From positions 10,289,950 through 10,353,949 of the forward strand of contig NC_037596.1 of assembly GCF_003073045.1 (NCBI RefSeq): DNA of 64,000 nt, read 5' to 3'. Of this stretch, positions 1,657 to 58,105 are shown piece by piece (position 1 is the first letter of the stretch; each line of letters starts with the position of its first letter). Below the pieces are notes generated by a model. That model saw only the letters and a program-made list of their open reading frames with translations, searched no databases and was not told the DNA's origin. A program made the position numbers and the translations under genes. The stretch comes from Pomacea canaliculata. Taxonomy: Eukaryota > Mollusca > Gastropoda > Architaenioglossa > Ampullariidae.

Positions 1657-2347
1657 CTAACAAGGTGATATCACAGGTGTAGTCGTTGATGTAGGACAGG
1701 GTGCGCGTTAACTCCTTGTCAAAGACTCTACACGTGATGCCGATGATGTCGTTGATAACGCTGGGGTAGAAGAAAAGTATACTGGTGATGTTATTAACCC
1801 TAATTGCTCCTGAACCCTCAGAATATGAATGGCACTTGTCATCGGTCATAGAACACACATCAGTATTGGTTAGCTGATTGCCATTGCTAGGGTCCTGTCT
1901 TGTGATCAACCAGGCCACATAGTAGTTAGCTGGGACGTCCACACATTTGAATCTGTAATTCATTTCATACCGCGGCACATCTTTATGTTCACCAGGAGTG
2001 CATCCTTCGATCGCATGACCTGTAAAGGCATTCATTTGTTAAAAAATCATTTTTTTCTAATGAGTTTAGTACCAACAACAATTTTAATAATATGCATAAT
2101 TTTAAACAACTGTATTAGTTTGAAGAAACGTAAGGTTAACCGCATACTTGTCCTTATTTCTTTTGCTCCTGTCTTTCCTTTTGTAATTATAATCATTATT
2201 ATCGCCACTTTGTCATCATTATATTATTATAACTACTATTCATGTGTTATTTGTTTATTTTATTTCTCTATTTGTTCTGCTGAATAACATTTTACCTGAG
2301 CAGTGCTTGAGTATTACAAGCAAAGCAAGGATGGTGATTACTGCCAT
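1657..2347 (-). CDS. Gene 1: secreted or membrane Ig-like cysteine-rich protein, 3' part beyond the visible exons
   Basis: Two coding exons are visible. Exon 1 (2347-2296) encodes signal peptide MAVITILALLVILKHCSG and ends in phase 1 at a GTAAAA donor. Its 5' untranslated part reaches an acceptor at about 2438. Exon 2 (2019-1657, 363 bp, phase 1 in and out, GTAAGT donor) encodes about 121 residues with the family pattern: IEGC near the start, FKCVDVP followed by a Trp (VAW), two Cys in the middle, then IITSI-like and IGITCRVF segments and YTCDITLLG at the end. Cys-(about 11)-Trp-...-Cys spacing suggests an Ig-like fold. The 125-bp and C-terminal exons seen in its paralogues are not found in 1-1650, where a hAT element sits; they probably lie beyond the left edge. 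Function unknown. Confidence 0.8.
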
Positions 2348-2448
2348 CGTGTTGTTGATTGACAATCCTGTGTTTGATGAAACTGGGAGGTTGTTAACCC
2401 GAGATCCGAGCCGATGCCAAGCAAATAAACACAAGAGTCTGGAAACAT

Positions 2449-3347
2449 GAGAATCTCGGTATAGTTACCATGTGCTTCATTCACTTTGTCCTAATAAGAA
2501 TCACAGAGATATGGACATAAAAAATTATTGATAGTTTTTGCTTTTAACAAATCGGGGTTAGAAACATCGCAAACTCTAAGCTTGATGAAATTTGAAGTTT
2601 GTCCTATGTATTTGTTAAGAAAGAATCGTCCAGTTATGAAATGTTCCAGATGTGTTAGCAAGCGTTTCCTCGAGTACAAGTAATAATAATCAGCTTGTTA
2701 ACGACACATAATTAATGTAGAGTTTAACTAGAAATTGAATAAAGACATAAGAGAAAAATCAAGTTAAACATATGTTAACAGTAAAACTCTTGCATAACAA
2801 AAAAATCAAACAAATAAAAGGCAACAAAGTAATACACAATGTACTAACGTTGTCTGCCGTTCTTATCGACTTTTATTCTTTATACTTTCTTCATTAAAGA
2901 CGTATTGAAGGAATAGTTTTCATTTATTTTAAATTTTCTATTCAAATTATTTAAGCGAAAAAACTTTTAAAATAATCAAGCCACCCCTTCGAAGTATATG
3001 TATACGTTTCTTTGCCTTAAAGCTGATGAAGGTTCAAGAATTGGAGAAAATATTCAAATAGTGGTACAGTCGATATGTCTTGACATTAAAACAGATTTTA
3101 TTTACAACTTTTCTTTTTTTCTTTTTCTTTAAAATCAATTATTGTCTATTTATACCGTTCTGTTCAAACGTTTAATTAATGTTACTTTCATTACATTTGC
3201 TTCTAATACACTTAAAAAGATCATCATTCTTGAAAATACACTGTTCCTTCGCTAGAACAACGACTAAGACAAACATCATAAAATTGTGTAGCATGTCACA
3301 TGACCATACCAAAGGAACACTCAGACACACGTTACCTCCACACTTAC
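2449..3347. other. 5' intron of gene 1
   Basis: AT-rich sequence between the proposed non-coding first exon and the signal-peptide exon of gene 1. No repeat, RNA gene or convincing coding exon was seen. The short open frame at 2491-2679 on the minus strand has no splice context or family similarity. Confidence 0.4.
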
Positions 3348-7055: not shown

Positions 7056-8831
7056 TTACTCGAGAATGGCGATGGCTTTTATGTTATCAGGAAGAAGAGT
7101 AGCTTCCACATTTCGTATGTTGTCTGGATTCGGTAAATTATGGGCCATACAACTACCCCCGTCGGTGGCTCCTCCTGGTTCCGTTCTTATGAAGGTAGGG
7201 TTGCTCAAAACCTCGGTTGTATCATCCTAGAACAGGACGACATTCCGACTTATCGTTTTATTTTACATACTAACATTAATTGAATATATCATTAACAAAT
7301 ATTATTATAACAACTTTACAATAACTTAATAATTTTTTTTCAAAAAAATGATTGATCATTTTGTATTTGTTTAAAAAATAGAGAAATCCAATATATTACA
7401 ATGGCAGCTCAGTAGATACAATGTAAGTCAAAAAAGTCTATTAACACAGGATTGATTTTACATGTTCTTCGAAGCTGTGTGCTGCTTAACAGTTTTCAGG
7501 TTGTATTGTATATTGACTGATCACATAAAACAAGCTTGTTATCATGTTAAATTTGAAAGCCACGCACTTGAAACCTCGCAGTCAATTCGCAACTGTAGTC
7601 TCGGCTTCGTATGTAAATGTTTAGAATGGAACAAACTACTGACAAGGAATTGTCCGCTTGTCTTTGCAAACTGCACGAGAAGGTTGGCGAATCTGAAAAT
7701 TAATGGAATGGGGATCACATCTTTACTTTCAAAATCGACGTGCAAATACAAAATATGACGAATATAGAAAAAAAGATGCGTATGTAGAGATGAGCACGCG
7801 CGCACACACACACAAACAAATAGATAGATCGGCACATCTGTATGACTATGTGTCTGACCTATACGTCTAAGCTCATGTTCACTACACACCAAGCCATGGG
7901 GCTTCCATCACAAGAAATCAAAAGTCTCGATGAAAAAAATAAGGAGCGATACTGTTTCTACTTACCTCTCTTGGTTAAGCTGCAAGTGTACTCGTTCATG
8001 TACATGGACCGGTAGGTATCTATATTGTCGAATACTCTACAAGTAATGCTCAGAAAGTCAGACATATCTGTTGAGAAGACTTCAAGCACGCTGGAAGTGT
8101 CGTTGTATCGGCGTGCTTCGGCATTATCTAGGTATGTGGTGAACTGGTTGATGCTTGGAAAACAAGACACAGAAATCAACTGTCTGCTCGCTGCTTTCTG
8201 AAAGTGCCAGGACACACATTGGTTTGGCATCTGGAGATGGCATTTGAAAATATTTCTGCTTATATCCACATCCATAGGACTGTCTAGCCCGCATCCTTCG
8301 ATTACCTGACCTGTGAATATGTTGCTTCATTAAAATATTTGTTAATGATTAGATAGTGTGCACAACTATTTAAATTCATTTGCCGGATTCACATGATTTT
8401 ATCCGTTTTAGGCTGCTTCTTCGAATCGATCACCCTGCACCTCTTTAGAATATATTAAACTTTTTTTTTAGTCCTCTATTTCTTCTGTTCCCTTCTGTAC
8501 TAATGTCTTCTTTTTTGTCATAATTATAATGACCACAAACTACCTTTATGATCACTCTCAATATTGATTTAATGTGATAAACTCTTGTTAAGTTTTGTAT
8601 TCTATATATTTATTATATCATTATTATGATATTTGTATTATTAAATATATATATATATATAATCCCCAAATTTACAATTATTATCATCACTTTTTCATCA
8701 TTATCATCTATTTTCATTTGTTTTTACTTTTATGCGTAATTCTTTTTAGTGTGTTTAGCCTTAACCTTACCTGAGCAGTCTTTCAGTAATACAAGCAAAA
8801 TGAGGCTGGAAATTACAAACATCATGTTCAT
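7056..8831 (-). CDS. Gene 2: secreted Ig-like cysteine-rich protein, four coding exons, 233 aa
   Basis: Exons on the minus strand are 8831-8771 (signal peptide, MNMMFVISSLILLVLLKD..), 8310-7966 (345 bp), 7692-7568 (125 bp) and 7226-7056 (171 bp, ending TAA). Phases are 1, 1, 0 and every border is AG/GT; the third donor is a GTGCGT variant. Joined, they read 234 codons without a stop. Exon 2 has VIEGCG, FKCHLQ, CVSWHF, LSITCRVF and YTCSLT. Exon 3 has FSCSL, VVCSI and RSRDYSCEL. Exon 4 has GSCMAHNLP and VEATLLPDN. The start is the first ATG after the acceptor near 8891. No transmembrane segment follows, so a secreted product is predicted. The pattern suggests two small Ig-like domains, the second split by an intron. 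A minus-strand AATAAA lies at 6976-6971. Function unknown. Confidence 0.85.
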
Positions 8832-12356: not shown

Positions 12357-15300
12357 TTAGTCTTGGAAATTAGCAATGGCGTGTAGGTCGTCAGGGAGAA
12401 AAATTCCTTCCACTTGTTTAATGTGCTCTTTACGAGGCAAGTTATGGCCAGAGCACGTGCCCGTGGCGGGCCCCTCCGTCTGTTCCGTCGTCATGAGAAA
12501 CGTGCCCGTGATCGTCTGTACTGTCCCATCCTAGAAAAAAATATTTTGCACATATGCTGTAAGGTAACAATATGAAAAGTGCATATTACTTGAATGTAAC
12601 AACGGTAAATATAATTAAAAAAATATTAAAATAATATTAAATTATTTATGTAACATTTTTTGTTGTTCCACAAGAAAAATCCAGCATTTGAGAATGGCAA
12701 AATAGTGCATGCAAAAACTTCTAAAACCAATATATATTCTGTTATACTATCTTTTCATTGATTACATGAAACAAACTTTCATTACCTTAAAAAAATTAAA
12801 GCACCATACCTGCAATGTCAGAATAAAGTTGCATTTGTAGTCTCGGCTTAGTATGTAAATCTTAAAAATAGTGCAGACTGCTGACATGGAATGGTCTGTT
12901 TGTTGAGTTAAACTGCAGGTGAAGGATGGAACATCTGGAAATCAATTGAATTAGAATCACTTCTTCTTTATTAGAAATCAAAGCGTGAAAAATATAGGTC
13001 CTGGGAAATGTCGAAAAAATGGCAAGGTAGAAAAGCTAGTTCTTTTTGACTGACTGTCCCTTCTGCTGATTCTTTAAAAGGTGTTTATATTTTTCAACAA
13101 ACACATGCATTACATAAAAGGTTAGATAAAACAGAGTTACCGGGCTTTCACCTTTTCTGTTATCGCTCTCTTAGTTTCTTGTTTTTGTTAGCTTGTTTAC
13201 TTGGAAACCTGATAACTTTATATTGACATGAGATACAGACCTGAAATTTGGTTGAGATTTTTTTAATACAACTGTAAACATTTTCATAAAGTCTTTTTAA
13301 GACATATTTAGTAGTTTAGTAGTTACACTGTTTTAAATCAAAATTTCTTAAATTTTAGCAAGCAGTTTTACCACAAAAAATATCATTCAATATAATTAAT
13401 TGGATTTCACAAATTTCCCCCTCAAAAGATTGTAGATCTTTCTTTTAGGTAACAATTTTCAAAAAAAGTTGACTTACAAAATTGACGAAGTTATAAACTG
13501 TTTAAAATGTTTCTTTTGGTGCCACTTTGGATCGCTTCCATGGCAACCGATAGTGTGAAAAGTGCAGTAAAACGTTTTTGAACTATCATTCAAGAGCAAA
13601 ATAGTTTAGTTTAGTCCTTGTTACTCCTCAAGGAGCATACGGCCGCAACAACACCTCACCAGTGGACCCGATATAAGGCAACCACACTCAGTTGGGCCCA
13701 TGTGGTCCCGATGTCTTTGCCTCGCTCTCTACTGTTATTTTACAAGTCCACTTCAGTTTCCCAACTCTCCTCTTCCCTGAGGGTTCCAGTCAAGTGCCTG
13801 CCTGGCAATGGTGTCAGCTGGTTTACGCAGGGTGTGTCCTATCCACCCCCATTTCCGAGTTTTAATGCCTTGGCTAGTGGCATTCTGGTTGGTTCTTTTC
13901 CACAGGCTGCTGTTGGAGAGCTTTTCGGGCCTTCTTATTCCCAGAATATGGTGTAGCCATCGGTTGGCAAAAGTCTGGAGCTTGCTTTTAATTATGTTTG
14001 TCACTCTCCAGGTTTCACAACCATAAAGTAGGACTACCTTCGCATTGGTGTTGTAGATGCGAGTCCTACTGCGAAGGATAATGCTCGAGAGTTCCAGATG
14101 GGGCGTAGGCTGTTGAAAGCATGGATGGCCTTGTTGTTGTGGCTTTTGATGCCATCGTCCGCTCCACCATCCGTGTTTACAATACTTCCCAGATACTGTT
14201 TCCATGATGATCTCTCCTTGAAGCTGGATTGTGAGTTCATGCTTGTTGTTGATTCTAATCACTTCGATCTTCTCTCTGTTGACCTTTAAGCCAGTCTTCT
14301 CTGTTTCTTTTGCCAGCTTACTCAGTTTGTTTGTGCACGTTGTTGCCGATGAGATGGGATACTAATGTCATCTGCAGAGTCCAGATCCTCTAGCTGTTTG
14401 GTGAAGGTCTACTGAATACTGGTGTTGTTATCGTAGGTTGTCTTGCGCATAATCCATTCTATGACCATCAGGTAGATTGTTTTCAACCCATTCTTACTCC
14501 GGTCTTCATTAGAAAAGGTTTAGTGAGTTTAGCGCTGTTGATAACTTGGCAGGACGAGTCTTCGTTCAACCGCTGAATATTGTTTATGAGCCAAGGTGGA
14601 ATGCCATAGTGGATCATCAACCTCCAGATGTCTACACTGTCGAATGCCTTCTCTAAGTCCACAAAAGTTATATAGAGGGAGAACTGTCACTCAAAAGACG
14701 GTTCAATGATACGGATGGTGGTAATGTAGTCAGTGCATGACCTATCCTGGAGAAACCCTGCTTCTTCTAGGGAAAAATAGGTGATATTAATAAAATAAAA
14801 ATCAGTTGCAGTCTGTAAAACGTACATTTTTTATTGAGCAATAACGTCTTTACTTACCACTTGATGTTAAGTCACAGGTGTAGTCCATCATCAGTGAACG
14901 CTCTGTGTAAACCATACACCCGATGCTCAAGAAGGCAGACATATCTTGTGAGAAGATTTTCGCCACGCTGGAAGTCGCGGTTTTTTTGAAAGCTTTGACA
15001 TTGTTCAGGTATTTCTTGCAGCCCTTACGTTCCATAGTACACTCCGCAACTTTGGCGACTATTACAATGTGTTCATCATTAGGATACTTTTTTCTGACAT
15101 ACCATAACACACGATGACCAGGCGGAATGTCTACACATTCAAAAGTGTTTGTAGTTGCATTCATTCCCATAGGCGATTGAGGACTGCATCCTTCGATTTT
15201 ATGGCCTGTAAATGTCACACTTTATTTACAAAAAGGCTTTCTTTTTAAAACACAAAAGTCTTCTACTACAACTATATAAACGATTTAAAATAATTTGTTG

Positions 15301-15698
15301 AATTCCCAACGTTCAATCCTTTTTCGGCTGCTTTTTGGAGTCAGCCAACGCCTCAACACCTCCCCTTGAATCTTTAAACTATCTCTTCAGTATTTTTTTC
15401 TTCTCCTTTACCAACCTCTTTTTAACAATCAAGAATGTATTTACGATCACTTATGTTATTATTTCTACACTAATTAATTTGTACTGTTTTCTAAGAGAAA
15501 GACAGATGTATATCATCAACATGCTCAGGATTATAATCATCCCTATTATTATGACTTCCATCTTATATAATATGCATTTATTACCGTTATGCTTACTATC
15601 TGTTCAGTGTAGGTAGCACCAGTCTTACCTGAGCAGTCCTTCAGGATTACAAGCAGAAAAAGGCTGGTAATTACAAACATCGTTATGTCGATAGACAT
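12357..15698 (-). CDS. Gene 3: secreted Ig-like cysteine-rich protein, four coding exons, 238 aa
   Basis: Minus-strand exons are 15698-15629 (signal peptide, ending VILKDCSG), 15205-14858 (348 bp), 12934-12810 (125 bp) and 12530-12357 (174 bp, TAA). Phases are 1, 1, 0 and the join has no internal stop. Exon 2 has KIEGCSP, FECVDIP, VLWYV, AECTMERKGC, LSIGCMVY and YTCDLTSSG. Exon 3 has FTCSL, AVCTI and LSRDYKC. Exon 4 has GTCSGHNLP and VEGIFLPDD. A non-coding first exon ends at 16341 (GTAAGT) and splices to an acceptor near 15758. A LINE fragment sits in intron 2 and lengthens it to about 1.9 kb against 0.8 kb in gene 4. AATAAA lies on the minus strand at 12124-12119. Close paralogue of gene 4; secreted by prediction, function unknown. 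Confidence 0.87.
13614..14769 (-). mobile_element. 5'-truncated LINE (endonuclease-RT type), in intron 2 of gene 3
   Basis: On the minus strand, hand translation of 14690-14590 gives reverse-transcriptase residues FVDLEKAFDSVD followed by a HYGIPPW segment. An open frame at 14262-13753 gives the C-terminal region with LLYGCETWRVT, NRWLHHILGIRRPEKLSN and KWGWIGHTLRKP. No endonuclease part is present, so it is 5'-truncated, and the RT region is broken by stops and frame changes. Copy B of the segmental duplication keeps only about 50 bp of its 3' end (about 23385-23437). The insertion therefore appears older than the duplication and was deleted from copy B. The family differs from the LINEs at 16.9 and 36.3 kb. 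Edges are approximate. Confidence 0.75.
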
Positions 15699-16889: not shown

Positions 16890-17026
16890 AGTTTATACAC
16901 TTCCCCTGTGGGACCCCGGGGTATGCTTGCCTAGCAAGCATTGCAAGAATAGGGTCCCTGCCATCCAGCCAGGCATGTCGTAAGAGGCGACTAAGGTGGA
17001 CACCTCACCTAGAGGTAAAATAGGTT

Positions 17027-17758
17027 GTGGTAGGGCTAACAACCCCACCATGTAAAAAAAATCCTGTTACAGAAACTAAAACCAGAGAACTCGTCACAGA
17101 TGGCGAAGGTAATGAAGCACACCAGGAGACTGGACTAATGACGGACGACAGCCAAACCCGAAAGGGAGCTGGCGCCCCGACAGCGGATTTACTGAAGCCG
17201 AGGCAGAAGTTGAGGGTGGGGTGCTGGAACGTCCAGACCTTGTACCAGACTGGCAGGATGCTCCAATTAGTCAAGGAGTTTGACAACTACAACTTGGACA
17301 TCCTGGGAGTCAGTGAGGTCAGATGGACTGGCACGGGAAAGAGGAGACTAGCGTCAGGACATACCATCTTGTTCTCAGGAAGATCAGACGCTCAGCACTC
17401 TGAAGGAGTAGCTCTACCCTCAACAAGAAAACGAAAAGGCACTGCTGGAATGGAAGCCTTATGGACCAGGCTTTTGAGAGCAAGATTCCATTCCAAGTAC
17501 ACCAAGCTGACAGTGCTAGCCTGCTATGCACCAACAAATGACTCTGAGGCAGAAGACAAGGATGCTTTTTACGATCAGCTCCAGGCAGCCTCAGAAAGCG
17601 TTCCAGCCCTCGACATGTTGCTCATCATCGGCGATCTCAATGCCAAGGTGGGAAGTGACAACACCTGCAGGGAGCATGTCATGGGCAAACATGGAATCGG
17701 AAGCATCAATGACAACGGAGAGAGACTGGCAGACTTTTGTGAAGAAAACAACTACTGA
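17027..17758 (+). pseudogene. LINE endonuclease domain fragment
   Basis: This open frame encodes an exonuclease-endonuclease-phosphatase domain: RVGCWNVQTLY (N of the active site), SEVRWTG (E), YAPTND and GDLNAKVG (D, N). It ends early at a stop after EENNY, where a one-base loss shifts the frame. The following endonuclease and linker residues continue in another frame from about 17757 to 18369. It is part of the LINE at 16903-20122. Confidence 0.85.
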
Positions 17759-18343
17759 TTGGAGGCACACTCTTCCCACACAAAGACATCCACAAGGCAA
17801 CATGGACATCACCAGATGGGATCACAAAGAACCAGATAGACCATGTCATCATCAACCGAAAATGGAGGAGCTCACTTCAAGATGTTAGAGCCTACAGAGG
17901 AGCAGACATTGCCAGTGACCACACTCTTGTGATAGCCACAGTTTCTCTGAAGCTGCGTCGATCACGAGGAAAACAGGCACGTCAGCAGGAGAGTGGACTC
18001 CGGCAAACTAAAAAATCCAGCCACCGAAGGGCCTTTGCTATGGAAGTAAAGAACAGGTTCCAGGCACTAGGAGACCAACAAGAGATGACCTTAGACGACT
18101 TCAATCGAGTCTTACAGGAATCAGGAGAGAAAATACTGGGCTTCCAACGGAAAAAGAAAGAACAGTGGATCAGAGAAGAGACATGGAAGAAGATAGAAGA
18201 GAGAAAGTCAGCCAAACAAAGAATCAACAGCACCAGATCTGAACGCCTGAAGGAACAACACAGACAAAGATATGCAAAACTGAACAAAGAGGTAAAGAGG
18301 ATGACAAGAACCGACAAAAGATATCACATAGAGAAACTGGCAG

Positions 18344-18886
18344 ATGAAGCAAGAAAATGCAGCAAGTAAAAATGACCTGAAGACACTGTACAAGATAAAC
18401 AAACAGCTAAACAACGGGTTTAAGAACAGTGATGTGCCAGTGAAAGACGTGAACGGTAATGTCGTCGAGGGAGAGGCAGGAAAACTACAGCGCTGGAAGG
18501 GAAATTTTGAGTCGGTTCTGAACAGACCAGATCCCCCTCAGCTTGCAGACATCCAGCCAGCAGCTATAGACCTTGACATCTGCACAGACCCACCAAGCCT
18601 GGAAGAAGTGACAGCAGCAGTCAAGACAATGAAGAGCGGCAAAGCACCAGGGGCAGATGGAATAACAGCAGAGATGTTGAAAGCAGACGTGAATGTGACA
18701 GCTCCCAAGCTGACTGAAATCTTCAGGCAAATTTGGGAATCAGGGCAGCTCCCTGTTGCTTGGAAGACAGGGCTCATCTTCAAGTTACCCAAGAAAGGAG
18801 ATCTTGGAGACTGCAATAATTGGAGGGGCATAACACTTCTTTCCCTCACCAGCAAGGTCTTCAGCAAGATTGTTTGTCAAGACTGA
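18344..18886 (+). pseudogene. LINE reverse-transcriptase N-terminal fragment
   Basis: The frame contains the RT lead-in and first conserved blocks: AVKTMKSGKAPGADGITAEM, LPVAWKTGLIFKLPKKGD and NNWRGITLLSLTSKVFSKIV. It then stops at QD. The following RT blocks, with FIDLEKAFDSI at about 19020-19050 and an ADDI-type sequence near 19335, are in other frames. It belongs to the LINE at 16903-20122 and is not functional. Confidence 0.85.
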
Positions 18887-20135
18887 CGGCAACTCTTGAG
18901 AAAGACTCCGACCACAGCAAGCAGGATTTCGCCCTGGGCGATCCTGCTCCGAACACATCTTCATTCTGCGACAGATTCTGGAGCAGAGCAACGAATGGAA
19001 CACACCGCTGTACATCAATTTCATCGACCTGGAGAAGGCTTTTGACAGCATCACGCGAGTCCTTATGGAAGATCCTGAGGCATTACGGAGTCCCCTGCAA
19101 AACTTGTTCAGGTCATTGCAATGCTGTACAGCGATTTCAAATCCCAGGCTGTCTGTGACACGGAGCTCACAGACCCCTTCAACGTCAGTACCGGGGTGAA
19201 GCAGGGCTGCATTCTGTCGCCGTTCTCTTCATCCTGCCATGGACTGGATCATGAAGACTTCACCGACAGCGAGAGGAGAGGGCTCAGATGGACATGACTA
19301 TGACAGCAACAACAGCACTGGAAGACTTGGACTTTGCTGATGACATTGCCCTGCTGTCACACCGCCACCAAGACATGCAGGAAAAAACAAAGGCCTTCTC
19401 AGAAACAGCTGGAAACCTTGGCTTGAAGGTCAGCAACAAAAAAGACTAACAGTATGAGAGTGAACGCCAGAGTCCAAGACAGCATCAAACTAAATGGAGA
19501 AGAGATTGAGGAAGTTGACAGTTTCACCTATCTTGGGTCCAAAATGTCAAACACTGGGGATGCGGAGGTGGAGATTCGAGCCCGACTGGCGAAAGCCAGT
19601 CAGGCCTTTGCTCACTCAGGAGCACATGGAAGGCAAAAAACATCAGCCAGAAGATCAAGCTGAGAATCTTCAAGTCTAATGTGATCAGCACCCTCCTTTA
19701 CGGATCAGAATCTTGGAAGATGACCAAAACCATCAGTAAAAGCTTGACGTCTTCCAAAACAGATGCCTCAGGCGCATACTTAACATCTTTTGGGCCAAAC
19801 ACCATCACCAACGAAGAACTCCACCGAAGAAGTGAAACCGAGTCCATCACCACGCAGGTTCAACGAATGGCGTTGGCGATGGATTGGACATGTGCTCCGC
19901 CAGCAGACAGCAGACCTTTCCAGAGTCGCCCTACGATGGACTCCAGACGGCGAAGAAAACGAGCGCGCCAAAGAAACTTGGAGAAGAACAGTGGAAAGGA
20001 GATGAAAGAAAGGGCTGGACATGGGGTCACCTAAGCGTGTTTCAGCCGATCGACATCGGTGGCGGACTCTGGTTGAGGCCTTATGTGCAACCTGATGCAC
20101 AAAGAGGAATAGATAGATAGATAGTTTATACACTT

Positions 20136-26364: not shown

Positions 26365-26406
<42 letters not shown>

Positions 26407-26489
26407 GTACCAGTCTTACCTGAGCAGTCCTTCAGGATTACAAGCAGAAAAAGGCTGGTAATTACAAACACCGTCATGTTGATCGACAT
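25679..26489 (-). pseudogene. Gene 5: decayed member of the secreted Ig-like family
   Basis: Exon 1 (26489-26420) is intact and nearly the same as the signal-peptide exon of genes 3 and 4 (MSINMTVFVITSLFLLVILK). Exon 2 starts well at 26028 with EIQGCSP, FECVNIKPD and a Trp (VSWNIY), then PSAVCSSFDIC. The frame is lost near 25760: the LSIxC and YTCDLT segments are replaced by out-of-frame sequence ending in NNPAT. A remnant of the end, CDII before a GTAACT donor, is visible in another frame near 25679-25693. No 125-bp exon or last exon is found between 25320 and 25680. A GAT microsatellite has grown in intron 1. It is a host-gene pseudogene unless the assembly is wrong here. Confidence 0.75.
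26293..26406. repeat. (GAT)n / (GATT)n microsatellite in intron 1 of gene 5
   Basis: About 114 bp of GAT units broken by GATT steps lie immediately downstream of the donor of the gene 5 signal-peptide exon. In other frames it yields long His or Ser runs, which are not real protein. Confidence 0.9.
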
Positions 26490-37500: not shown

Positions 37501-39582
37501 TGATTTCCACGTTGCCTTGTGGATGTCTTTGTATTGGAAGAGTGTGCCTCCAATCAGTATGTTGTTTTCTTCACAAAAGTCTGCCAGTCTCTCTCCGTTG
37601 TCATTGATGGTACCAATTCCATGTTTGCCCATGACATGCTTCCTGCAGGTGTTGTCACTTCCCACCTTGGCATTGAGGTCGCCAATGATGATTAACATAT
37701 CGTGTGCTCGAACACTTTCCGAGGCTGCCTGGAGCTGATCGTAAAAAACATCCTTGTCTTCTGCCTCGGAGTCTTCTGTTGGTGCATAGCAAGCTAGCAC
37801 TGTCAGCTTGGTGTACTTTGAGTGGAATCTTGCTCTCAAAAGCCTAGGTCCATAAGGCTTCCATTCCAGCAGTGCCTTTTCAGTTTTCTTGTTGAGGTGT
37901 AGAGCTACTCCTTCAGAGTGCTGACCGTCTGATCTTCCTGAGAACAAAATGGTATGTCCTGACGCTAGTTTCCTCTTTCCTGTGCGGTCCATCTGACCTC
38001 ACTGGCTCCCAGGATGTCCAAGTTGTAGTTGTCAAACTCCTTGACTAGGTGTAGCATCCTGGAAGTCTGGTACAAGGTCTGGATGTTCCAGCACCCCACC
38101 CTCAACTTTTTCTTCTGCTTGAGTAAATGCACTGTCAGGGCACCAGCTCCCTCTCGGGTTTGGCTGTCATCCATCATAAGTCTAGTTGCCTGGTGTGCTT
38201 CATTACTTTCACCATCTCTAATTCTCTGATTTTAGCTTTGGTAACATGCTTTTTCAACATGGTGGGGTTGTTAGCCCTACCACAACCTGTTTTACCTCTT
38301 GGTGAGGTGTCCACCTTAGTCGCCTCTTACGACATGCCTGGCTGGATGGCAGGGACCCTATTCTTACAATGCTCACTAGGCAAGCATACCCCGGGGTCCC
38401 ACAAGGGGGCTATTGGAGATAGCACTGTGAAATTATCTGAAAGTAGTAAGAAAAGTTTTTAAAAAATCAAGAGAAAGTTCATATTTTACATCTGCACATC
38501 AACTTTTGTTTAGAGTGTAATAAAGTGAACATTAACCTATATGTTTTGTGAAAAAAAAACAGTCATTTATTTAAATACCATACTATCAGTCCCATAATTT
38601 TAGATTTTCTATTTTATTGTACTGTTACATTTTCACATCTTATTAACTTTTTAGTACTTGGTGAGCTGAAAACAACCAGTAATGACCAGTTGTCAAATTA
38701 GTATGCTCCTTTTTGTAGCATCTATCCAATGTTGTCTAGTTTTCTTTCTTGTATTAATTAACAAAAAAATAGCAACTATAATAAGTTAAAGACTTTATAA
38801 ATGCAGATTCTGTATGTTTGCTGACTAATCTGGAATCACACAAGGCTTAGCAGGGAAAACACTTGACAATATGTATATCAGCCTTTCAAATACAGGGTCA
38901 CCATGTTTTCTTCTCTATCATACAAGTAAATGTTGCTTTTTAAGTAAGGGGTCAATTATTTTTAAATAGATAAGGAAAGACTAGGCTTTGAATGAAATTA
39001 ATGGGCACACCAGAAAAATTGGATGAAGGCAGAAGGATGTGAACTCTGAACGCTTTTCAGGACAATGCTAGGTAAGAGAAGGTTCATGCATAGCTTTCTA
39101 GAAAGTGTGGCACAGCTACTAACGTTAAAAGACTGAGAAGCTGTCACCTGTGAGAGGAAAGCCGCAGGCGCTTTCTTTTGCAATACTTGTAAATAGTCAA
39201 CATTTCATTTGAGGCACCTGTGATGGGATGAAATGGGATAACTTAGCAGGATATAATACATAACAGATGTGCATCAGAGGAGTTATTGTTTGAGGAATCA
39301 TAATGTTAAATTTTGTGACACTTAGAACTGATACTTTGCCTATTAATTAAGATAAATATATTTTTCACTGTGTTGGTCTTGTGAATGGAAAGTACTTTGT
39401 GGGATCAAACATCATTAAGTTGCAGGTATATTTTCAAATTATTTCAATCTCTATGGTATTTTTTTGCAGATAATGGTGGTAATGGCAATGCTGATTACAG
39501 CTCAGAAATACTTGTTTTTGCAAGCATCTTGGGCTTTCTAATCTCAGGTACAAGCAGGATACCACTTAGTGTCTGGTTATGA
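34530..39582 (+). CDS. Gene 6: cysteine-rich surface protein, probably GPI-anchored, 184 aa
   Basis: Exon 1 (34530-34578) encodes signal peptide MNLSRIVILLLGFCTS and ends in phase 1. Exon 2 (35818-36210, 393 bp, phase 1 in and out) encodes about 130 residues with 12 or so Cys, including ICPTLINGDNSVICKINRT, GCWCNEY, VECKICNSP and VNDNCRSMRF. Exon 3 (39470-39582) encodes DNGGNGNADYSSE and a hydrophobic tail, ILVFASILGFLIS..IPLSVWL, then TGA. With no charged cytoplasmic tail after the hydrophobic end and small residues before it, a GPI signal is the best reading. A GTACAAG donor at 39548 could allow an alternative tail. Exon 2 is homologous to exon 2 of gene 9. Intron 2 carries a LINE (36265-38407). 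A distant AATAAA is at 41560-41565. Function unknown. Confidence 0.8.
36561..37121 (-). pseudogene. LINE reverse-transcriptase C-terminal remnant
   Basis: The frame covers the end of the RT domain and thumb: LDFADDIALLSHGHQDMQEK (catalytic ADD motif), STKKTKSMRVNTRVQD, YLGSKMSNTEDAEVEIR and LRIFKSNVISTLLYGSESW. The RT core before it is deleted, so it cannot be active. It belongs to the LINE at 36265-38407. Confidence 0.8.
37351..38177 (-). pseudogene. LINE endonuclease remnant
   Basis: Two overlapping frames encode most of the endonuclease: RVGCWNIQTLYQTSRM and LGASEVRWT upstream of about 37965, then LASGHTILFSGRSDGQHSEG, VLACYAPTEDSEAED, IIGDLNAKVGSD and NILIGGTLFQYKDI. It keeps the base missing from the 16.9-kb copy, so it reads on through the NNI-LIGGT junction. 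It is interrupted near 37965-37990, where the frame changes. Confidence 0.8.
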
Positions 39583-44052: not shown

Positions 44053-47000
44053 ATGCTGACAACACTCAAGAAACGACAACAAACAGCAGCAGCTCTTTTG
44101 CTTTTTCTCTTTGGTCCATCACTCATCGCTGGTAAGAAAAATTCACTCTTTTCATTTTTGTCATCCTTTGTTTGAGGCATTTCTTTGTCACTAGCAAGAT
44201 CCACATCAAATTCTCTTGTGCGCCTATCTGCCCAACAATAATAATAGGACATACATAATCCAGTTTCCTTAATCAGAGGTGAGCTCAGTATTTTTCTCAT
44301 CAATTGTCCTCTTATCTTTTTATTGTCATTACTAAAGGAGTCAGCCTCTCACCAAGTTGTATCGATGGTACCTGGGAAGTACTGGCTGAGGAAGAAACTC
44401 ATTTCCATTGCACGGCTGAAGGAGATATGCAGTGGACATTACTACTTACTAACAGCTCTCGTCCCATCTCATTAGCTACATGCAATACAAACTGCATCAC
44501 TCTGAATACCTACCAGGGACTTTTCGCAGCAAGGATTACCGACCTTCACACATCAACTCTCACTATCAATCCTAAGAACAACAGAAAGTTATACGACAAT
44601 ATCCAGCTTGTGAACGGCAGTCTGGAGTGTAATCGTGGAGATATGGATGACTCATTTGCTGGCTGTGGGCTCAACTTTGTGTGTAAGTACATAGTAGTCC
44701 ATAGTAATAACTTTTTATGAAGAGGTGATCATTCTAGCGCAACCCACAGCAGTATGGCCAGCAGTCTGTAGATCTTTTCTAGACAGTCTTTCTTAAATTC
44801 TTTAGCTTAAGTCGCTAATGTGATATCAAATTTGGCCATTGTTTCTTCCTAAAACCAAAATACATTTCAATGGCACTTAAGCTTTGTGAAAATCTTATTT
44901 AACAGATCCTCCAAATGGAGTCTCTTGCACAGCATTGAATACCTCATGGGCCATCAATGTGTCCTGTGTTATCGGCAGTGTCTACTCCTCACGGAAGCTT
45001 TACACATGTTCCTTGATTCGAACACAGATGGTATGTCATAAAAGTGGTAGATGTAGTAAAAATAGCACGTAGGAGGAGGTGGAGTAGAGGTCTTACCATA
45101 TTAGCAACAGGGGAGATAAATGAGTTCATTGATATCACACGTTTATGTTTATTTGGATTTCTTACTCCTCCAAGTTAACAATACTTTTTTACCTCTTATA
45201 TTTACATTTGCTTTTCAGAAGTAACATTTTTGAGTCGTCTTTTATTTGCTTCACTTTTTTCCAGTCCAAGAAGGAAATACTAGAAACTGTCACCATGGTG
45301 ACCTCATCGACCAGCGAGAGGATCACTAAGAATGAAATAAAGGTGTCAGGATCCTGTTGGTTTTACACAACACTCCCACCAGACGAAGGGAAATATGGAT
45401 TCCTTGTCTCTGTCTCACCAGGTGGACGACATTTTAACATGGAAGACAAGTTGTTCACAGTTGGTAATAAAATACTCCATTTTCCTTAAAGTTTAATTAA
45501 AGCTTACTTTCCATTTTAATCAACTGAAACAAATGTACACAAAACCCTCCACATTCGCACTCAAATATTCATGCAGCTGAAAATATGGTAATGTAAATAC
45601 ATGTATTAATCAAGACTATGCAAATCAGCCAAAGCAATTGTCGCTGTATATGATAAAAGTCCTGCAAAGCAGCAATTCATTCAAAATAAGTTGTGATGCC
45701 AAATATTTATAAAATGATTGGTACTGCAATCACTGCTGAGATAGTAAGCTGGAAAAACACAAATCTGACCGGATAAGGTTAAAGAAAGTGTTTATTTTCT
45801 TTAGAACAGCCCGGATTGCCAGCAGTCTCTTGTGGTCCTCACCCCTACGTGTTAGAAAACACAAGAGTTTTCTGTACCTGCAGCACATCTAGCCTCGGGG
45901 TGCCGGCAGGGTACCTGAGATGGGTCACCGGTAACCAACTAAATCAAGGAACAGTTGCCATGCAAGAAAATCTGGAGCTGTCATCAAAAAGACTAGACTA
46001 TAGTCATATCCTTATTTTGTCTGATCACGGTAGGACTTGGTTCAGGTGTGATGTTATTTGGGCAACTGAGGAAATTCGAGGAGAGAACTACACTGCTAAC
46101 GTGGGATGTAAGTTATAGATAGCTTTTAGTATTTTTACTTTAAGTGTTTATGATGAAAATTTAGTAGAAATATAGACAAGCACCAACGGGATTTTGAAAA
46201 ATATAAAAAGCAGCAACTGGAGAAAAACTGAGAGGGGGGGGTTGATTCTTTGGCAAGCCGTTTGGCTTAGGAAGAGGGATATGGTTTGAACTACTAACGT
46301 ATATTGGCTAGCACCTCCTGTCGTCACTTAAAATTAAATCTTATAATTATATCTTATAATTAAAGCCTTTCAATGAATAAAATAAGAAATTCGCTTAGAA
46401 AATAGTATTAGTCATTTTGATATTTCCTTTTTTCTTCAATATTTTACACAAATTTGATGAAATGTACCTTATTCTAAGACTAACCCATAGTAATATATAT
46501 TTTCAGACCCTCCTAAAACACCACATTTTTCTTTCAACAACCTTCAAAGAAATCAATCAGTCAACGAAAGAGATCAAGTGAATTTTCTGTGTGAATCAGA
46601 TGGTCGACCTAGACCAATCGTTTCCATCTATAACAACGACAACGACACTGTTATCATTAGACACTCGTCTCCTGTCACCTACTCGTTCATCGCTCGCTGC
46701 GAGGACACGGCCACCTACACGTGCTCTGCCTGGAATGAGTTTTCTAATCATTCTGGCGTGACAACCTCCTACAGTCTTGAGATTGGTGTCAATTGTAAGT
46801 TCAAAATGTATATAATGCTCGAAAGGTTTTTTAAGGTTTTTCTTTTGTTTTCTTGAGTTATGGTATCTTTCATTGTTCTATTTAGCACCCAGTCTTATAA
46901 GCTAGTTATGTTTATACAAAAGTGTTTCAAACTTGTTGATCTAAAGTGTCATTTGGTACTTATTTAATCCCTTTGTCAGTTTTACATTTTATATTTTGTT

Positions 47001-47346
47001 GTTCTTGACATATTAGGTAAGCCTCGAAGCCTTTCATTCAACCACCTGGGCACGGTCAAGTTTGGAAATAAAACACAGGAGCTGAACTTTGAAGTTATCA
47101 CTTACCCTGCACCTAACAAGTATGACTTATGGTTCGCACCACTAGTAATAAACAACAGTGAGCCCCTCTTCAGGAGGATTGAAAGTTCAGAGCTAAAAAT
47201 CACATGCAAAGCTTCCATACAACGCCGTTACCTGTCAAGGTGCACTTTGACCTTCTATGGCGGTCAGTCCCGATCAGATGGTTTCTACAAAGTACAAGTC
47301 ATCAATGAGCATGGTGAAGACAATTTCACTATTGCTATAAGTTACG
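44053..47346 (+). CDS. Gene 7: multi-Ig receptor-like protein, seven ectodomain exons
   Basis: Exons: 44053-44131 (signal peptide, AAALLLFLFGPSLIA), 44338-44682 (345 bp), 44906-45030 (125 bp), 45265-45463 (199 bp), 45805-46107, 46507-46794 and 47017-47346. The join reads about 556 codons with no stop; phases are 1,1,0,1,1,1,1. Exons 2-4 are homologous to exons 2-4 of genes 2-4: FHCTAEGDMQW, then NVSCVIGSVYSSRKLYTC, then VSGSCWFY. Exon 5 has VFCTCS, YLRWV and WFRCDV. Exon 6 is a textbook Ig domain with VNFLCESDGRP and EDTATYTCSAWNE. Exon 7 has LKITCKAS and YLSRCTL. An in-frame ATG at 43990 would lengthen the N-terminus. No transmembrane exon was found directly after 47346; candidate tail exons lie at 49937-52114. 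Likely a cell-surface receptor, function inferred. Confidence 0.85.
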
Positions 47347-51270: not shown

Positions 51271-52114
51271 TTTCATTTCATTTCATTTCTTGTTATTTGA
51301 CATTTTAGACTGGGTTTAGGAGTCAATTGAAGATCAAGCTCCATATTTGGTTCTTCATCTTGTTGAAACTGCTTTGCAAATAATAATAATAATAATAATA
51401 ATAAGCGTTTGAGTTATAAAGCTCATTATCGCTCTTACAAAAAAGCATGTTTTTAGCGCTCAAGATACAAAGTAAGTATCTGCCATGTTATAAATAAATA
51501 TTTTGAGCAAAGCATTTAAATAATATTGGTAACCTGACGGGAAAATCAGCACTTTCCCAGATTACAGTTAAAGTACCAAAAGCAACGAATGTATCTCACC
51601 TTGCATGCTACTGAGCGATTGAAGCTCCTCACTCAGCAGGTGAGATACTTTACCACGTGACACATCGGAAAATGAAAGCAGAAAGTAGAGGACACCTTAA
51701 CTAGGTTAAGGGAAGGTGATTAAAGGGAATCTACATTAGGAATTAGTTTTTCGGAGCTCAGACAAGTAAATTGGGATGTGTAGATGTTGAGCCAAGACTC
51801 CCACCAGAAGATGAAGTAGCATACGCTGTTGTGGATAAGGTCAGAGGTAAAGCTCACGGCTATCGTGCTTACGTGTGCAAGGTGGACACCAAGAATAATC
51901 TAATGCCAGCTTGCTACAGAGCTGATAGTGCCAATAGGAAATTATGTATATGTGTTTTCCATCACTATTTCCATCTGTATTTACAGAACAACATGGGCAA
52001 CAAGCGTGATACGTTTTCAAAAGAATGTAATTTCTTTCAAATATATTGTGTTTAAATGTCGAGAGCTTACATTCCAATACGGCAAACATTGCAGGTGAGG
52101 AAGAGAGATGGTGA
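49937..52114 (+). CDS. Candidate cytoplasmic-tail exons with two ITIM-like motifs (gene 7 or an unseen neighbour)
   Basis: Three putative exons fit in frame. 49937-49994 encodes NADGLIYGELDFTNKTTLE (phase 2 in, 0 out; the donor GTCAAC is weak). 51762-51846 encodes GCVDVEPRLPPEDEVAYAVV and DKVRG (phase 0 in, 1 out; acceptor CTCAG, donor GTAAAG). 52095-52114 encodes EEERW then TGA. LIYGEL and VAYAVV both fit the ITIM consensus [SIVL]xYxx[IVL], whose phosphotyrosine recruits SH2 phosphatases in known Ig receptors. The phase-2 entry matches the tail exons of genes 8 and 9. The order and strand suit gene 7, but the transmembrane exon that should join them was not found. A TTTA microsatellite separates the first two. 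Status inferred. Confidence 0.45.
51180..51273. repeat. (TTTA)n microsatellite
   Basis: About 23 uninterrupted TTTA units, ending in a few TTTCA units. An AAT run follows at about 51377-51402. The tract makes an artefactual YLFI repeat frame. Confidence 0.95.
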
Positions 52115-54530: not shown

Positions 54531-54536
54531 ATCATG

Positions 54537-57500
54537 TCAAAAAACCTGAAAAGTTCACAAAGGAGTATTTATATTATTTATAGCGCTTTTGGCTGTCAGT
54601 GTGACTATTTTTTTAAATAAATGCTTTTTACACAACTGCCTCCAAAAGCAAAGGATGTCACTGGTAAGTACTTTCTTTTAAAGTCAACAGACTAGAAAAA
54701 TAAATCTCACATGTGCACATTTTCTTGAGGCCTTAAGCCTGATATAAGACTGAAGGTAAAAAGATTACTTACCTCTGACAACCTGGTATAATGCCTCTCC
54801 TTGGTACTGATGTCACGTGACCAGCTCTTTGTAGGCACCTCACTAGCAAGTAAGCAGAAAAACGTGATGTTTAGGTTGTTGTCGTGGCAATAAATAAAGG
54901 ACAACTAGCTGTCACTAATAATAATTAGAATTTAAAAAAAGAAAGAAAAAACGGCAAGTAAGAAGGGAAGGAGAATAAACACATAAAGAAAAAAAAAACA
55001 ACATTAGCTTTGCATAGGGTGATATTATGATCCGTGCACAATGACTTTAGGTATATTCATTTTACTTCTAAATTAAGTTTTTATATCATGATATTTCTTA
55101 CAAAATATCTTAAATTTTTTTTTGAAAACAAGATCATCTTACATTTGTCATCAGCAGCTAAGTACGAGTTTTCACTCAGCTTGTTGGTGATGTTCATTCT
55201 CGCTTCCAGCTGTTACAATGGTTCTCAGACAGTGAATCTTGAGAGCTTCCAGCTGTCACAGTCTCGCAGTTAAAATGTAGAACTACATTGACCTATCCCT
55301 GAAGCTCAGGGCCGTGACTTGTGTAGAGAGCATCTTGGGAGGACTGTGTCAACACATTCTTTGCTGCTCTCTAGAAATGTTTCCCTTTTTTTGGACATGT
55401 AAGTCCTGTATTATTTAGCACAGGACTTACGAATCCACCAATCGTAGCGAACGAAACTTAAATTGGTTTATGATCTTGATCAGCAGGCAAGTACTTATGT
55501 CGCTTTAAACACGGAAATTAGGAAACCTTCCACGCTGTTTGAGTAGGGAAATAGCAACTTTAAATTGTTATCTTTATGATAGCCATATAGTCATGTAGGC
55601 CGTTTGCACTAAGCACAAAAACAGAGTTACCTCTAACCCAAAACTTGAAAATAAATGTAGTCATTAAACACTATTTAATTCTATTCTCTTTTTTTCTGGT
55701 ATTCAGAATTATTAATTACGAAGCTAAGTCTTTGTTTTCAAAAGACATTAACAAATTGGGTTTTTTTTCTGTTGTAATTTAAGAGGTTTTGGTGATTAGC
55801 ATAAACGTGAGGTTGAAAAGTATATAATAGCTCATAAATTTTTAATGTTATTGGTCTAATATAGTTTCGTATTCCAAGTAAATGGGACCTAATCGGGGCT
55901 TCACTTTTTTTCGTTCAAGCTTTGACTGTCTCGTGAGCGAAACAGGTTGTAATTCATACAACCCAGTACACTTTTTCTTTTTAAATGCTAAACTTGGAAA
56001 AACCATAGCGGCAAGTAGAATATTACCTTTAGTTTCATCTATCTTTTTGTCATGAGCTGGAAATTTGACAGAGTAGTTACGGTCGCCTGGTGAGACAGCC
56101 ACAAAGAAGTTTGCTTCTTCTGAAAGTGTTAAGATGAACTGACAGGAGCCTGACGCCTTCACTTCACCTGTCGTGACGCTCTCTCTGGTTGGTGACGTAA
56201 CCATGGTCACAGACTGCAAGCTCTCCATCTTAGAAACAATCAGAATGTCAATGGCAAAAACAGTTAAAAATGTTGAAAACGACAAAGATTATTACAAAAC
56301 AAGAAAAAGAAAGTGGAGAAAAAGAAAGTGAAACAGAGCTCGAAATGTTGATATAAATATCTGTTTGTGAACTTCAACCACAGGAGTTGTGTACGTCATT
56401 CTGAGTACTTTTACTGAAGATAGTTTAGGTTGTTTCCAAAACAGACAACATATTAAGATCAAACTGCATTTAGTTTTCTTTACAGACTTACCTCGCTTTT
56501 AAGACGATAAAGGTGACACTTGTACATTTTACTGGAAGAGAACACACTGCCGATGACACATGACACGTGGACATTCCAAGAGGTTGTGACTGCGTTGCAT
56601 GACACGTTTTCTGATGGAACTGTGTAGGATCGAATGTTTCAACAACAACAAAAACTCAAGAAAGCGTGTAAATAATAAGAAAAAAACAATGTTTTGCATG
56701 TTTCGACGGTAAATATCCTCGCATCGGTGACAGCATCTTAATTTGAAATAAATAAATAACTCACTAAATTTGCTTCACCTTTATTCTGGTTTAATTATAC
56801 AGCAACAGTACTTGTTCGACACTGCCTATATTATCTAGCTTTTTGTTTTGATCTATGCTATTATTTATAACTTTAAATAATATAAATGTAAACTTTGAAG
56901 CATTAGGGTCTATAGTCTATTTTAAATTAGACTGAATTCAGTTTAAAAGTATTGTATACAGGTTAGTGAGCGAGGTCGATAGAGTCATCACAATTATTTC
57001 TTGAGAAACATCGTGATGTTTCAAACTTTCTGCGATTCTTATTGTATATGAAAATAAATGATATATTTCTAAATATTAGAATCAAAATGTTGAGTCTCTT
57101 CTTTGGTATATGCTATGAACGAAATTAAAATACTTAATTTATCGCTTTGTTCTTTATGATGTAGTGTGAAGTTTTCCATTTCTAATTTTTCTGTTTTCTT
57201 ATGGTATTATTGATTTAATTTTACTTAGGAATCGATATCTGGTCTTCTAATCGTTTGAAAGTGTCTAAATTGTATCCGTGAGGTTTTCTTCCTCTTTCAG
57301 AAACACATACACACCCAGAGCAGCAGCATGTACATAATCAGTCTGCCATAAATTAATAAAGGCTACTTACAAACATAGTTGATCGCACAGGTAGATGATT
57401 CTGCGTTGTAAGTTCCAGCATTATGAACACATTCCAGAATACTGTTGACAAGTAGAATGTTACTACTGATGGATGTGTTCTCAGCGTTAATGGTAATCGT

Positions 57501-58105
57501 TTTATTGTGAGGGTCTAGAACTTTCGCTTGAAATATTTCGGTAAAGTATCCCGAACTATTACAAACGTGTTCTGTACATTCTGCCAACGGGAAATACTGG
57601 CTAAAATTATGTAATCCAACTGTAAGTCTCCACACCACTCGTCCTTCAGCCCTGCATGTAATCAGAGTCTTTTGTCCTGCCAGTACTTCTACGAAACCGT
57701 CATCATTACACGGTTGGATGTTTACACCTGTAAAATTTTTAATGAAAAATATTTATTATTCTATATTTATAAATTTATGATGATATGTATTGATAAGATT
57801 ATCACCAAATTTTTGCTTTCAGTCTAGCACTAACTTTCTCTCTCTCCCTCTCTCAACAGACACACACCACCAAGCCAAAATAGATGAACCGATACAATAG
57901 TGCAATACATGAATAAGGACAAATAAAAAATTATCATTAAGATTCATAAGCGAAGATTACAAAAGATATTAATTGACAAGAAATTATAATCTAGATAACA
58001 GAATACATTCTTACCTTCTGCTGGGGCTAAACTAAACCAAAATAAGGAGATACCCATCATCAACATGTTAATGTTTCCAAAAGAATGTGTGCAACTAGTG
58101 AGCAT
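54537..58105 (-). CDS. Gene 8: Ig-like receptor-like protein, paralogue of gene 7 (internal exons missing)
   Basis: Minus-strand exons: 58105-58015 (signal peptide, LMMGISLFWFSLAPAEG), 57727-57371 (357 bp), 56619-56492 (128 bp) and 56228-56027 (202 bp), with phases 1, 1, 0, 1. They match gene 7 exons 1-4: LITCRAEGRVVW, then NVHVSCVIGSVFSSSKMYKC, then KASGSCQF and FFVAVSPGDRNYSV. Further down are a possible tail exon, 54842-54773 (EVPTKSWSRDISTKERHYTR then LSE; phase 2 in, 0 out), and a last exon ending at 54537 that adds VF and a stop. HYTRL is a YxxL motif but not a strict ITIM. The Ig and transmembrane exons expected in 54850-56020 are not visible; only a frame-disrupted Ig-like remnant at about 55148-55270. 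The first four exons are firm; membrane type and completeness are not. Confidence 0.7.
55148..55270 (-). pseudogene. Frame-disrupted Ig-like exon remnant inside gene 8
   Basis: The minus strand reads FNCETVTAGSSQDSLSENHC and then NSWKRE before a stop. In the next frame it reads MNITNKLSENSYLAADDK before a donor AAAT|GTAAGA in phase 1. Together these resemble the end of an Ig-domain exon of gene 7 with one frame change. It may be a dead exon, a sequencing error or chance. Confidence 0.35.

Follow-up and report, generated by a model that had tools for sequence, protein, structure and literature searches.

Organization of the locus

The window, the whole 64,000-nucleotide stretch of Pomacea canaliculata contig NC_037596.1 that was analyzed (positions 10,289,950 to 10,353,949), contains a cluster of genes built on a shared three-exon module, with genes 1 to 5 and 8 on the minus strand and gene 7 on the plus strand. 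Rebuilding the window genes with GT/AG splice sites gives signal-peptide exons that end in phase 1, followed by an exon 2 running from phase 1 to phase 1 (345, 348, 348, 345 and 357 bp in genes 2, 3, 4, 7 and 8, and 363 bp in gene 1) and an exon 3 running from phase 1 to phase 0 (125, 125, 125, 125 and 128 bp in genes 2, 3, 4, 7 and 8). These sizes and the 1-1-0 phases are as reported in a first-pass annotation of the region, whose outer coordinates of 1657 and 58105 are also exact. Exon 4 has a short motif (GSCMAHNLP, GTCSGHNLP and GTCYGHNLP in genes 2, 3 and 4, and GSCWFY and GSCQFI in genes 7 and 8, respectively), and is either closed by a stop, with lengths of 171, 174 and 177 bp for genes 2, 3 and 4, so that the protein ends there as the annotation stated, or ends at a phase-1 donor-like GT, at 199 bp in gene 7 and 202 bp in gene 8.

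Gene 2 is of the secreted type and encodes a 233 aa protein from a signal-peptide exon at 8771-8831, exon 2 at 7966-8310, exon 3 at 7568-7692 and exon 4 at 7056-7226 (minus strand). Genes 3 and 4 have the same layout on the same strand and encode proteins of 238 aa and 239 aa; the signal-peptide exons lie at 15629-15698 and 24283-24352, exon 2 at 14858-15205 and 23509-23856, exon 3 at 12810-12934 and 22578-22702, and exon 4 at 12357-12530 and 22128-22304, respectively. Gene 1 was described earlier as showing the first part of the module, and its signal-peptide exon (2296-2347) and exon 2 (1657-2019, minus strand) are indeed what the window contains, but the gene continues beyond it, with exon 3 at C7:10289683-10289555 and an exon 4 that can be read to a stop. 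Gene 5 (25690-26489, minus strand) has a signal-peptide exon and an exon 2 in which, by eye, the reading frame breaks down over the last third; exon 3 and exon 4 were looked for and neither was found, and gene 5 is probably a pseudogene. Two other genes, 6 and 9, were considered as extra members and rejected, having no profile similarity to the module (probability 0.57% and 0.09%); they are 39% identical to each other.

The long-type gene 7 (plus strand) has a signal-peptide exon at 44053-44131, exon 2 at 44338-44682, exon 3 at 44906-45030 and an exon 4 at 45265-45463 that has no stop and continues in phase 1. Three further exons follow: an Ig-like exon 5 (45805-46107) that resembles exon 5 of a gene at 27.17 Mb and has a CD80-like C2-set match below cut-off, an ordinary Ig domain in exon 6 (46507-46794), and an exon 7 (47017-47346) resembling the exon that closes the ectodomain in the 27.17 Mb gene. 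Gene 8 (minus strand) consists of a signal-peptide exon at 58015-58105, exon 2 at 57371-57727, exon 3 at 56492-56619 and exon 4 at 56027-56228.

Two-domain structure of the module

The annotation treated the three exons as one module, and they do form one homologous unit with an Ig-like first domain, but the module is really two domains, encoded by exon 2 and by exons 3 and 4. As modeled for gene 3, exon 2 is a V-type Ig-fold domain with canonical strand-B and strand-F cysteines and a strand-C tryptophan. The best PDB matches of this AlphaFold2 model (pLDDT 83.6) are the V domains of antibodies, TCR and CD8, and C23, W34 and C96 sit in strands 20-23, 31-40 and 91-99, which we name B, C and F. 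The canonical Cys/Trp/Cys positions are kept in all 14 of 14 exon 2 copies and are in register in four long-type sequences, and the domain has three or four extra cysteines beyond the strand-B and strand-F pair. The annotation had proposed a comparison of predicted folds; gene 3 supplies a V-type Ig model for this, whereas the model of gene 7 exon 2, built from two sequences, has a pLDDT of 34, and this exon is classed as V-like by profile and by its cysteine/tryptophan register.

No Pfam family reaches its curated cut-off with exon 2, and sub-cut-off matches to QueF_N and DUF6745 were taken as chance. Among the sequences scanned against Pfam, the only matches above cut-off are in gene 7 exon 6 (Ig_3 and I-set) and, beyond the module, within residues 1-611 of the 27.17 Mb protein (Ig_3, Ig_2 and ig). 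A search of PDB sequences with the exon 2 profile returns a single match up to E 10, to SYG-2 (E 0.067), a nematode cell-adhesion Ig protein.

Exons 3 and 4 encode a second, four-cysteine domain that is divided by the phase-0 intron. We infer that this domain is also Ig-like in nature; one Pfam match, to Ig_NFAM1, was seen in gene B10 (E 0.041, below cut-off).

Relationship of the secreted and long types

Sequence comparison shows that the modules of the secreted and long types are homologous. For each of the three exons the score between the types exceeds 200 of 200 column shuffles, whereas a suspected kinship of exon 2 with gene 7 exon 5, suggested by a common CGP..V.EN look, was rejected when its score did not exceed the shuffles. 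Profile searches recover the relationship only weakly for exon 2: with the secreted-type profile, gene 8 is the one match (E 0.039) among the four long-type copies, and with the long-type profile two secreted-type copies are recovered (E 0.047 for the best and 4.8 for the other). The secreted-type and long-type exon 4 profiles have no mutual match in an ORF search. By hhalign, the long-type and secreted-type exon 2 match with a probability of 15.5%, and a smaller comparison with fewer copies, four short-type against two long-type, gives 0.26%. The 15.5% figure and the low pLDDT of the two-sequence long-type model would be expected if the short and long modules were unrelated units, both generic Ig domains sharing general Ig features only. 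We regard this as very improbable and largely refuted, given that the exon count and phases are identical at every module boundary, that each module exon exceeds the shuffles and the Ig-like exon 5 does not, and that the 27.17 Mb gene joins a secreted-type exon 2 with a long-type exon 4 behind it. In an exon 2 tree the 27.17 Mb gene groups with the long type at 25% support, which is uninformative.

Long forms and the membrane anchor

All seven secreted-type genes that were read to exon 4 stop there, and within the window gene 7 is the only one with a clear continuation into further Ig exons. The first-pass annotation had both genes 7 and 8 running on, and this holds for gene 7; because no further exon of gene 8 matched queries with exon 5 to exon 11 of gene 7 or the 27.17 Mb gene, its continuation is read only from the missing stop and the donor-like site. 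A hydrophobic-exon scan for a transmembrane exon gave 12 candidate rows for gene 7 and 5 for gene 8, none of them convincing; the grounds for discounting rows were low hydropathy, a bias toward cysteine or repeats, the wrong phase or a poor donor. The identical scan recovers the transmembrane segment of gene 9. A tail-like ORF downstream of gene 7 at 51747-52055 (EVAYAVV) was considered as a cytoplasmic tail of gene 7 and dropped, with stops present in the corresponding stretch of an inverted copy of the cluster. The term receptor is not established for genes 7 and 8, because no convincing transmembrane exon was found.

The window long genes may be without transmembrane exons, or have lost them, and be further soluble forms or decaying genes, an alternative that we consider somewhat unlikely. 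It would fit the outcome of the scan and the lack of a transmembrane exon in gene B10 by reading, and it draws further on the inverted copy, in 70 kb of which no long-type exon was found and the segment C7:10315.3-10338.0 kb (genes 5, 6 and 7) has no match of at least 300 bp except a repeat at 10326212-10327112. However, gene 7 is open across seven exons with good splice sites, and phase-1 hydrophobic candidates further downstream, at 53011 (gene 7) and 53471 (gene 8), may be transmembrane exons.

Outside the window, the C7 27.17 Mb gene is a long relative with a predicted transmembrane segment and a candidate tyrosine-motif tail. It has a secreted-type V exon (E 2.8e-21), matching phases, further Ig exons and a clear transmembrane exon (27183331-27183480), and a candidate tail exon, with splice sites judged by eye, contains two YxxL/V motifs (SLYESL and SHYEEV). 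A transmembrane segment together with a tail of the form (S/I/V/L)xYxx(L/V/I), the tyrosine-motif consensus of immune receptors, was found in this gene only, with its tail as a candidate. The gene model is without a placed signal-peptide exon, and with the chosen splice sites, joining an Ig exon at 27181404 to the preceding exon creates a stop. The module is a two-domain unit that occurs alone in short signal-peptide proteins or at the N-terminus of longer multi-Ig proteins. The earlier proposal that one cluster contains soluble as well as membrane forms is not supported in that wording; the membrane form was found outside the cluster, at C7:27.17 Mb.

Distribution of the family on the chromosome

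The 26 exon 2 copies that were read (6 in the window and 20 outside) belong to members found on a single chromosome, mostly in tandem clusters. Exon 3 follows exon 2 in both copies to the left of the window, in 8 of 8 copies of the inverted cluster (an insert divides one of them), as well as in gene B10 and the 27.17 Mb gene; outside the window, the 1-1-0 phases were checked in the last two genes only. A cluster at 30.6 Mb has nine exon 2 and five exon 3 matches, and a hydropathy scan there gave 17 candidate frames but no convincing transmembrane exon. The inverted copy of the window cluster lies about 0.6 Mb away, and gene number differs between the two copies. Neighboring genes can be very different, with gene 3 exon 2 having 26-38% identity to those of genes 1, 2 and 5 versus 84% to that of gene 4. 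Values of dN/dS are near 1 in a few recent pairs only.

From this architecture and clustering we infer that these apple snail genes make up an IgSF recognition family having both soluble and membrane forms, and we think it probable that its use is immune. The secreted forms would be haemolymph proteins whose V-like domain binds a ligand (possibly of parasite, microbe or self), and the long membrane form would show the same kind of binding head at the cell surface and signal via its tail. The secreted forms could serve as opsonins or, being soluble, as competitors or co-ligands of the membrane forms. The module and its secreted/long split would also stand in a family of ligand-receptor or adhesion pairs serving development, reproduction (egg/sperm proteins) or the shell/mucus matrix. 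No pathogen ligand is named by sequence, the 27.17 Mb long form looks like an adhesion-type multi-Ig protein, and SYG-2, the only PDB sequence match of the exon 2 profile up to E 10, is an adhesion protein; nonetheless, the tandem clusters, the gene-number difference between the inverted copies and the low neighbor identity are a better fit to recognition or conflict genes than to conserved adhesion pairs, and we consider a non-immune family unlikely. Reproductive conflict genes are equally compatible with the clusters and the low neighbor identity. On either reading, the family illustrates that sequence profiles can miss a V-type Ig domain in a snail genome, and that such a domain can recur, intron phases included, in both secreted and membrane proteins; an immune family would in addition make soluble partners and their membrane counterparts tractable for study in an invasive snail.

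Comparison with known recognition systems

Crab Dscam reportedly provides one ectodomain type as both soluble and membrane protein from one gene; the apple snail family is similar in having one ectodomain type in soluble and membrane proteins, but uses separate gene copies. The Alr proteins of Hydractinia are mostly transmembrane, whereas the secreted form is the commonest product found in the apple snail family, as compared by description with this cnidarian. Oyster CgIgIT2 has an Ig ectodomain with a signaling tail, a combination that, by description, it has in common with the snail long form and its candidate tail. Vertebrate LILRB receptors likewise have an Ig ectodomain, with ITIM tails (PMC11999971). 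The Hydractinia Alr allorecognition genes are, like the snail genes, clustered invertebrate IgSF members with V-set-type domains (PMC11999971). Gastropod FREP and VIgL proteins form an immune snail family whose members have one Ig-type domain or two at the N-terminus, a feature shared with the family described here (PMC7588048, PMC9178244). The apple snail module differs in being without a lectin or fibrinogen domain such as lies at the C-terminus of the FREP and VIgL proteins (PMC7588048, PMC9178244); Pfam finds neither in the whole gene 3 protein or in exons 1-4 of gene B10.

Some gastropod resistance loci encode proteins without a recognized domain. Biomphalaria PTC1 (GRC) and PTC2 are gene clusters encoding fast-diverging proteins without a named domain, with large gene-content differences between haplotypes; the PTC2 transmembrane proteins are of 166-530 codons, and PTC2 genes 3 and 11 resemble the transmembrane genes 2 and 8 without having a transmembrane segment, such that the two kinds of copies adjoin (PMC7494358). 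The apple snail genes are likewise clustered gastropod genes with no named domain, a likeness by description to the PTC loci as presented there (PMC7494358). It is conceivable, if rather improbable, that the family is a snail counterpart of paired V-domain receptors, in which a diversifying cluster of secreted V+C two-domain proteins would act as opsonins, decoys or ligands in soluble partnership with long ITIM/ITAM-type membrane receptors that have the same binding head, and that polymorphic gastropod clusters regarded as "domain-less", PTC2 among them, have an Ig-level identity. An immune role would make the composition of other unnamed snail clusters a testable idea. With respect to a PTC-like cluster of single-pass transmembrane proteins, genes 7 and 8 have no convincing transmembrane exon, genes 2-4 are of the secreted type, and gene 9 has a transmembrane exon. 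Unlike in PTC2, most of the snail-module members found are secreted-type two-domain proteins, and the transmembrane form found is a long multi-Ig protein (PMC7494358).

The module in short-type and long-type genes

The module occupies exons 2–4, with a V-like Ig domain in exon 2 and a second, four-cysteine domain in exons 3 and 4, and it is found in genes of a short, secreted type (genes 1–4 and their relatives) and of a long type (genes 7 and 8, B10, and a gene at C7:10373500, where C7 coordinates are those of the chromosome contig). When the genes are rebuilt with splice sites, the exon sizes and phases of the first-pass annotation are reproduced. Exon 2 identity between long-type and short-type members is 12–17% by pair, and the two types were compared as profiles (14 short-type versus 4 long-type rows for exon 2, 9 versus 3 for exon 3, and 5 versus 3 for exon 4), with 200 column shuffles per exon and reversed controls as the null. 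Exon 2 scores 23.9 (shuffle maximum 17.0, reversed control 12.3), exon 3 scores 22.6 (16.4 and 13.7), and exon 4 scores 17.3 (13.6 and 7.0). When exon 2 is instead set against the Ig-like exon 5 (3 rows), 158 of 200 shuffles reach the score of the short type and 16 of 200 that of the long type; the short–long signal is therefore not generic Ig likeness.

Searches of ORFs give a graded picture. Among 7,103 ORFs, the short-type exon 3 profile finds 19 short-type members, followed at ranks 20–23 by all four long-type exon 3s present (E values of 6e-4, 0.0033, 0.02 and 0.033), and the next ORF, which is unrelated, has an E value of 0.061. The short-type exon 2 profile matches gene 8 alone among the four long-type exon 2s (E 0.039), the best outsider for the long-type exon 2 profile is one short-type member (E 0.047), and neither exon 4 profile matches the other type. 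AlphaFold2 gave no usable model of gene 7 exon 2. The sharing of one module by short and long genes, as originally proposed, is real and is better founded than a reading of the sequence alone could have known.

A multi-Ig membrane gene linking the two types

A long multi-Ig relative outside the window, at 27.17 Mb on C7, has features of both types. Its exon 2 is matched by a short-type profile built without it (E 2.8e-21), its exon 4 by the long-type profile (E 1.9e-6), and its exon 3 by both (6e-4 and 0.0043). The three exons of its module measure 354, 128 and 184 bp, and the phases at their boundaries are 1-1-0-1; after them come an exon 5 related to gene 7 exon 5 (E 1.1e-5), more Ig exons, a membrane-proximal exon related to gene 7 exon 7 (E 3.4e-4), and a transmembrane exon (hydropathy 3.5). 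A candidate tail exon 2.5 kb past the transmembrane exon reads GGQTSLYESLQMEDVGKRSHYEEVQRYQNASTTAPYEG, its splice sites and phase being assigned by eye. No signal-peptide exon is placed in this model, and with the chosen splice sites the Ig exon L050 (C7:27181404-27181691) has a stop at the junction with the preceding exon, for which alternative splicing, an unplaced exon or an assembly error are possible reasons. With those limits, the head of the secreted proteins is seen here on a predicted multi-Ig membrane protein. The first-pass annotation had placed soluble and membrane forms in a single cluster; both forms are found, and it is their common location that fails, the membrane form sitting elsewhere on the chromosome.

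Gene structures

Genes 2, 3 and 4 are complete with four exons each and encode 233, 238 and 239 residues. Each has a signal-type peptide at its start (by eye), a stop within exon 4 and no hydrophobic end, and we therefore read the predicted products as secreted. Gene 1 extends past the window edge, where exon 3 is matched and exon 4 with its stop is assigned by reading; in gene 5, exon 2 is disturbed. The second intron of gene 1, between exons 2 and 3, contains a hAT-type transposase fragment (428-1057, - strand) with a Pfam dimerisation domain match (E 5.7e-5). LINE-type reverse-transcriptase or endonuclease-like ORFs are seen by eye at 13753-14800 (-), 17024-20034 (+) and 36561-37998 (-), one of them within the ~1.9 kb intron 2 of gene 3.

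Gene 7 has seven exons in frame (end phases 1-1-0-1-1-1-1; 556 residues so far), of which exon 6 encodes a conventional Ig domain (Pfam Ig_3 at 33 bits, above the cut-off of 30). A hydrophobic-exon scan that recovers the transmembrane exon of gene 9 gave no convincing one here, and gene 7 may thus be a soluble protein of the long type. In gene 8, a search for exons beyond the fourth found none. Two further long-type genes, with matches at C7:10366632 and C7:10373500, lie a short way past the right edge of the window. The first of them is B10 (C7:10366062-10369170, + strand); it begins with a signal peptide and has exons 2–4 and an exon 5 match, with nothing further found between that match and the next gene. 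The second runs from C7:10373500 onwards, also on the + strand.

Genomic distribution and divergence

The window corresponds to C7:10289950-10353949. The genome searched has 440,159,624 bases in 24 contigs; the published Pomacea canaliculata assembly is described as 440.1 Mb in 14 chromosomes, the longest 45.4 Mb, with heterozygosity of 1–2% (PMC6129957). Gene 3 exon 2 has 22 matches, all on C7. Seven fall at 10.28-10.32 Mb, five of these inside the window, and another eight, at 9.67-9.72 Mb, have the opposite orientation and a mirrored order. Of the rest, six are at 30.62-30.67 Mb and one is at 27.17 Mb; these seven are weak with this query (E 0.015-0.70), and a profile search confirmed them. 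The second short-type cluster (C7:30619108-30667923) contains nine exon 2s, five exon 3s and one or more copies of exon 4 that end in a stop.

The mirrored clusters (C7:9662001-9725566 and C7:10269952-10344964) are inverted, ~0.6 Mb apart, and ~83-96% identical in DNA over stretches of more than 1 kb. Gene number is unequal between them, one unit having three copies versus two and gene 1-like genes numbering two versus one, and for the segment with genes 5, 6 and 7 (C7:10315.3-10338.0 kb) a repeat is the only match reaching 300 bp in 70 kb of the mirrored cluster. The mirrored cluster may be a genuine inverted duplication, or else a second haplotype misplaced by scaffolding. Its gene 2 counterpart looks broken, since exon 3 is in two pieces ~150 bp apart (C7:9685470-9685747).

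As pairwise estimates, dN/dS values range from 0.06 to 1.32 among 17 exon 2 pairs. Values near 1 are seen for genes 3 and 4 (1.08) and their mirror pair (1.32), for gene 3 and its own mirror copy (1.07), and for gene 1 and a neighbour copy (1.02); four old pairs with dS >1 have 0.32-0.54. The module genes are thus constrained overall, with probable fast change in some recent pairs.

Relationship to known systems

The family is a divergent invertebrate IgSF with secreted and membrane members, a kind already known. The nearest printed parallel that we found is Biomphalaria PTC2, in which transmembrane genes lie beside relatives lacking a transmembrane segment, known domains are absent and no homologues are reported outside gastropods (PMC7494358); the likeness is one of description. 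A FREP-type identity for gene 3 was ruled out, as it has no lectin or fibrinogen part. Literature searches by title and abstract, in a collection that takes in a minority of subscription papers and not the annotation of the genome project, listed none describing this family, and to the strength of such searches the family is undescribed.

A two-domain protein of secreted type carries the V-type domain, and so does the transmembrane protein of one gene, which also has a candidate tyrosine-motif tail. By analogy, and from the clustering, the gene-number difference and the divergence, we infer an immune setting. The V-like domain would bind ligand, the tail of the membrane form would signal, and the soluble forms could serve as opsonins or competitors.

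Two other genes in the window, gene 6 (35817-36212, + strand) and gene 9 (59784-62440, + strand), have in common a cysteine-rich exon (39% identity) that matches no Pfam family above its cut-off. By reading, gene 9 goes on through a stalk and a clear transmembrane exon (from 61242) to a short tail, and the two genes form another small membrane protein family within the cluster.
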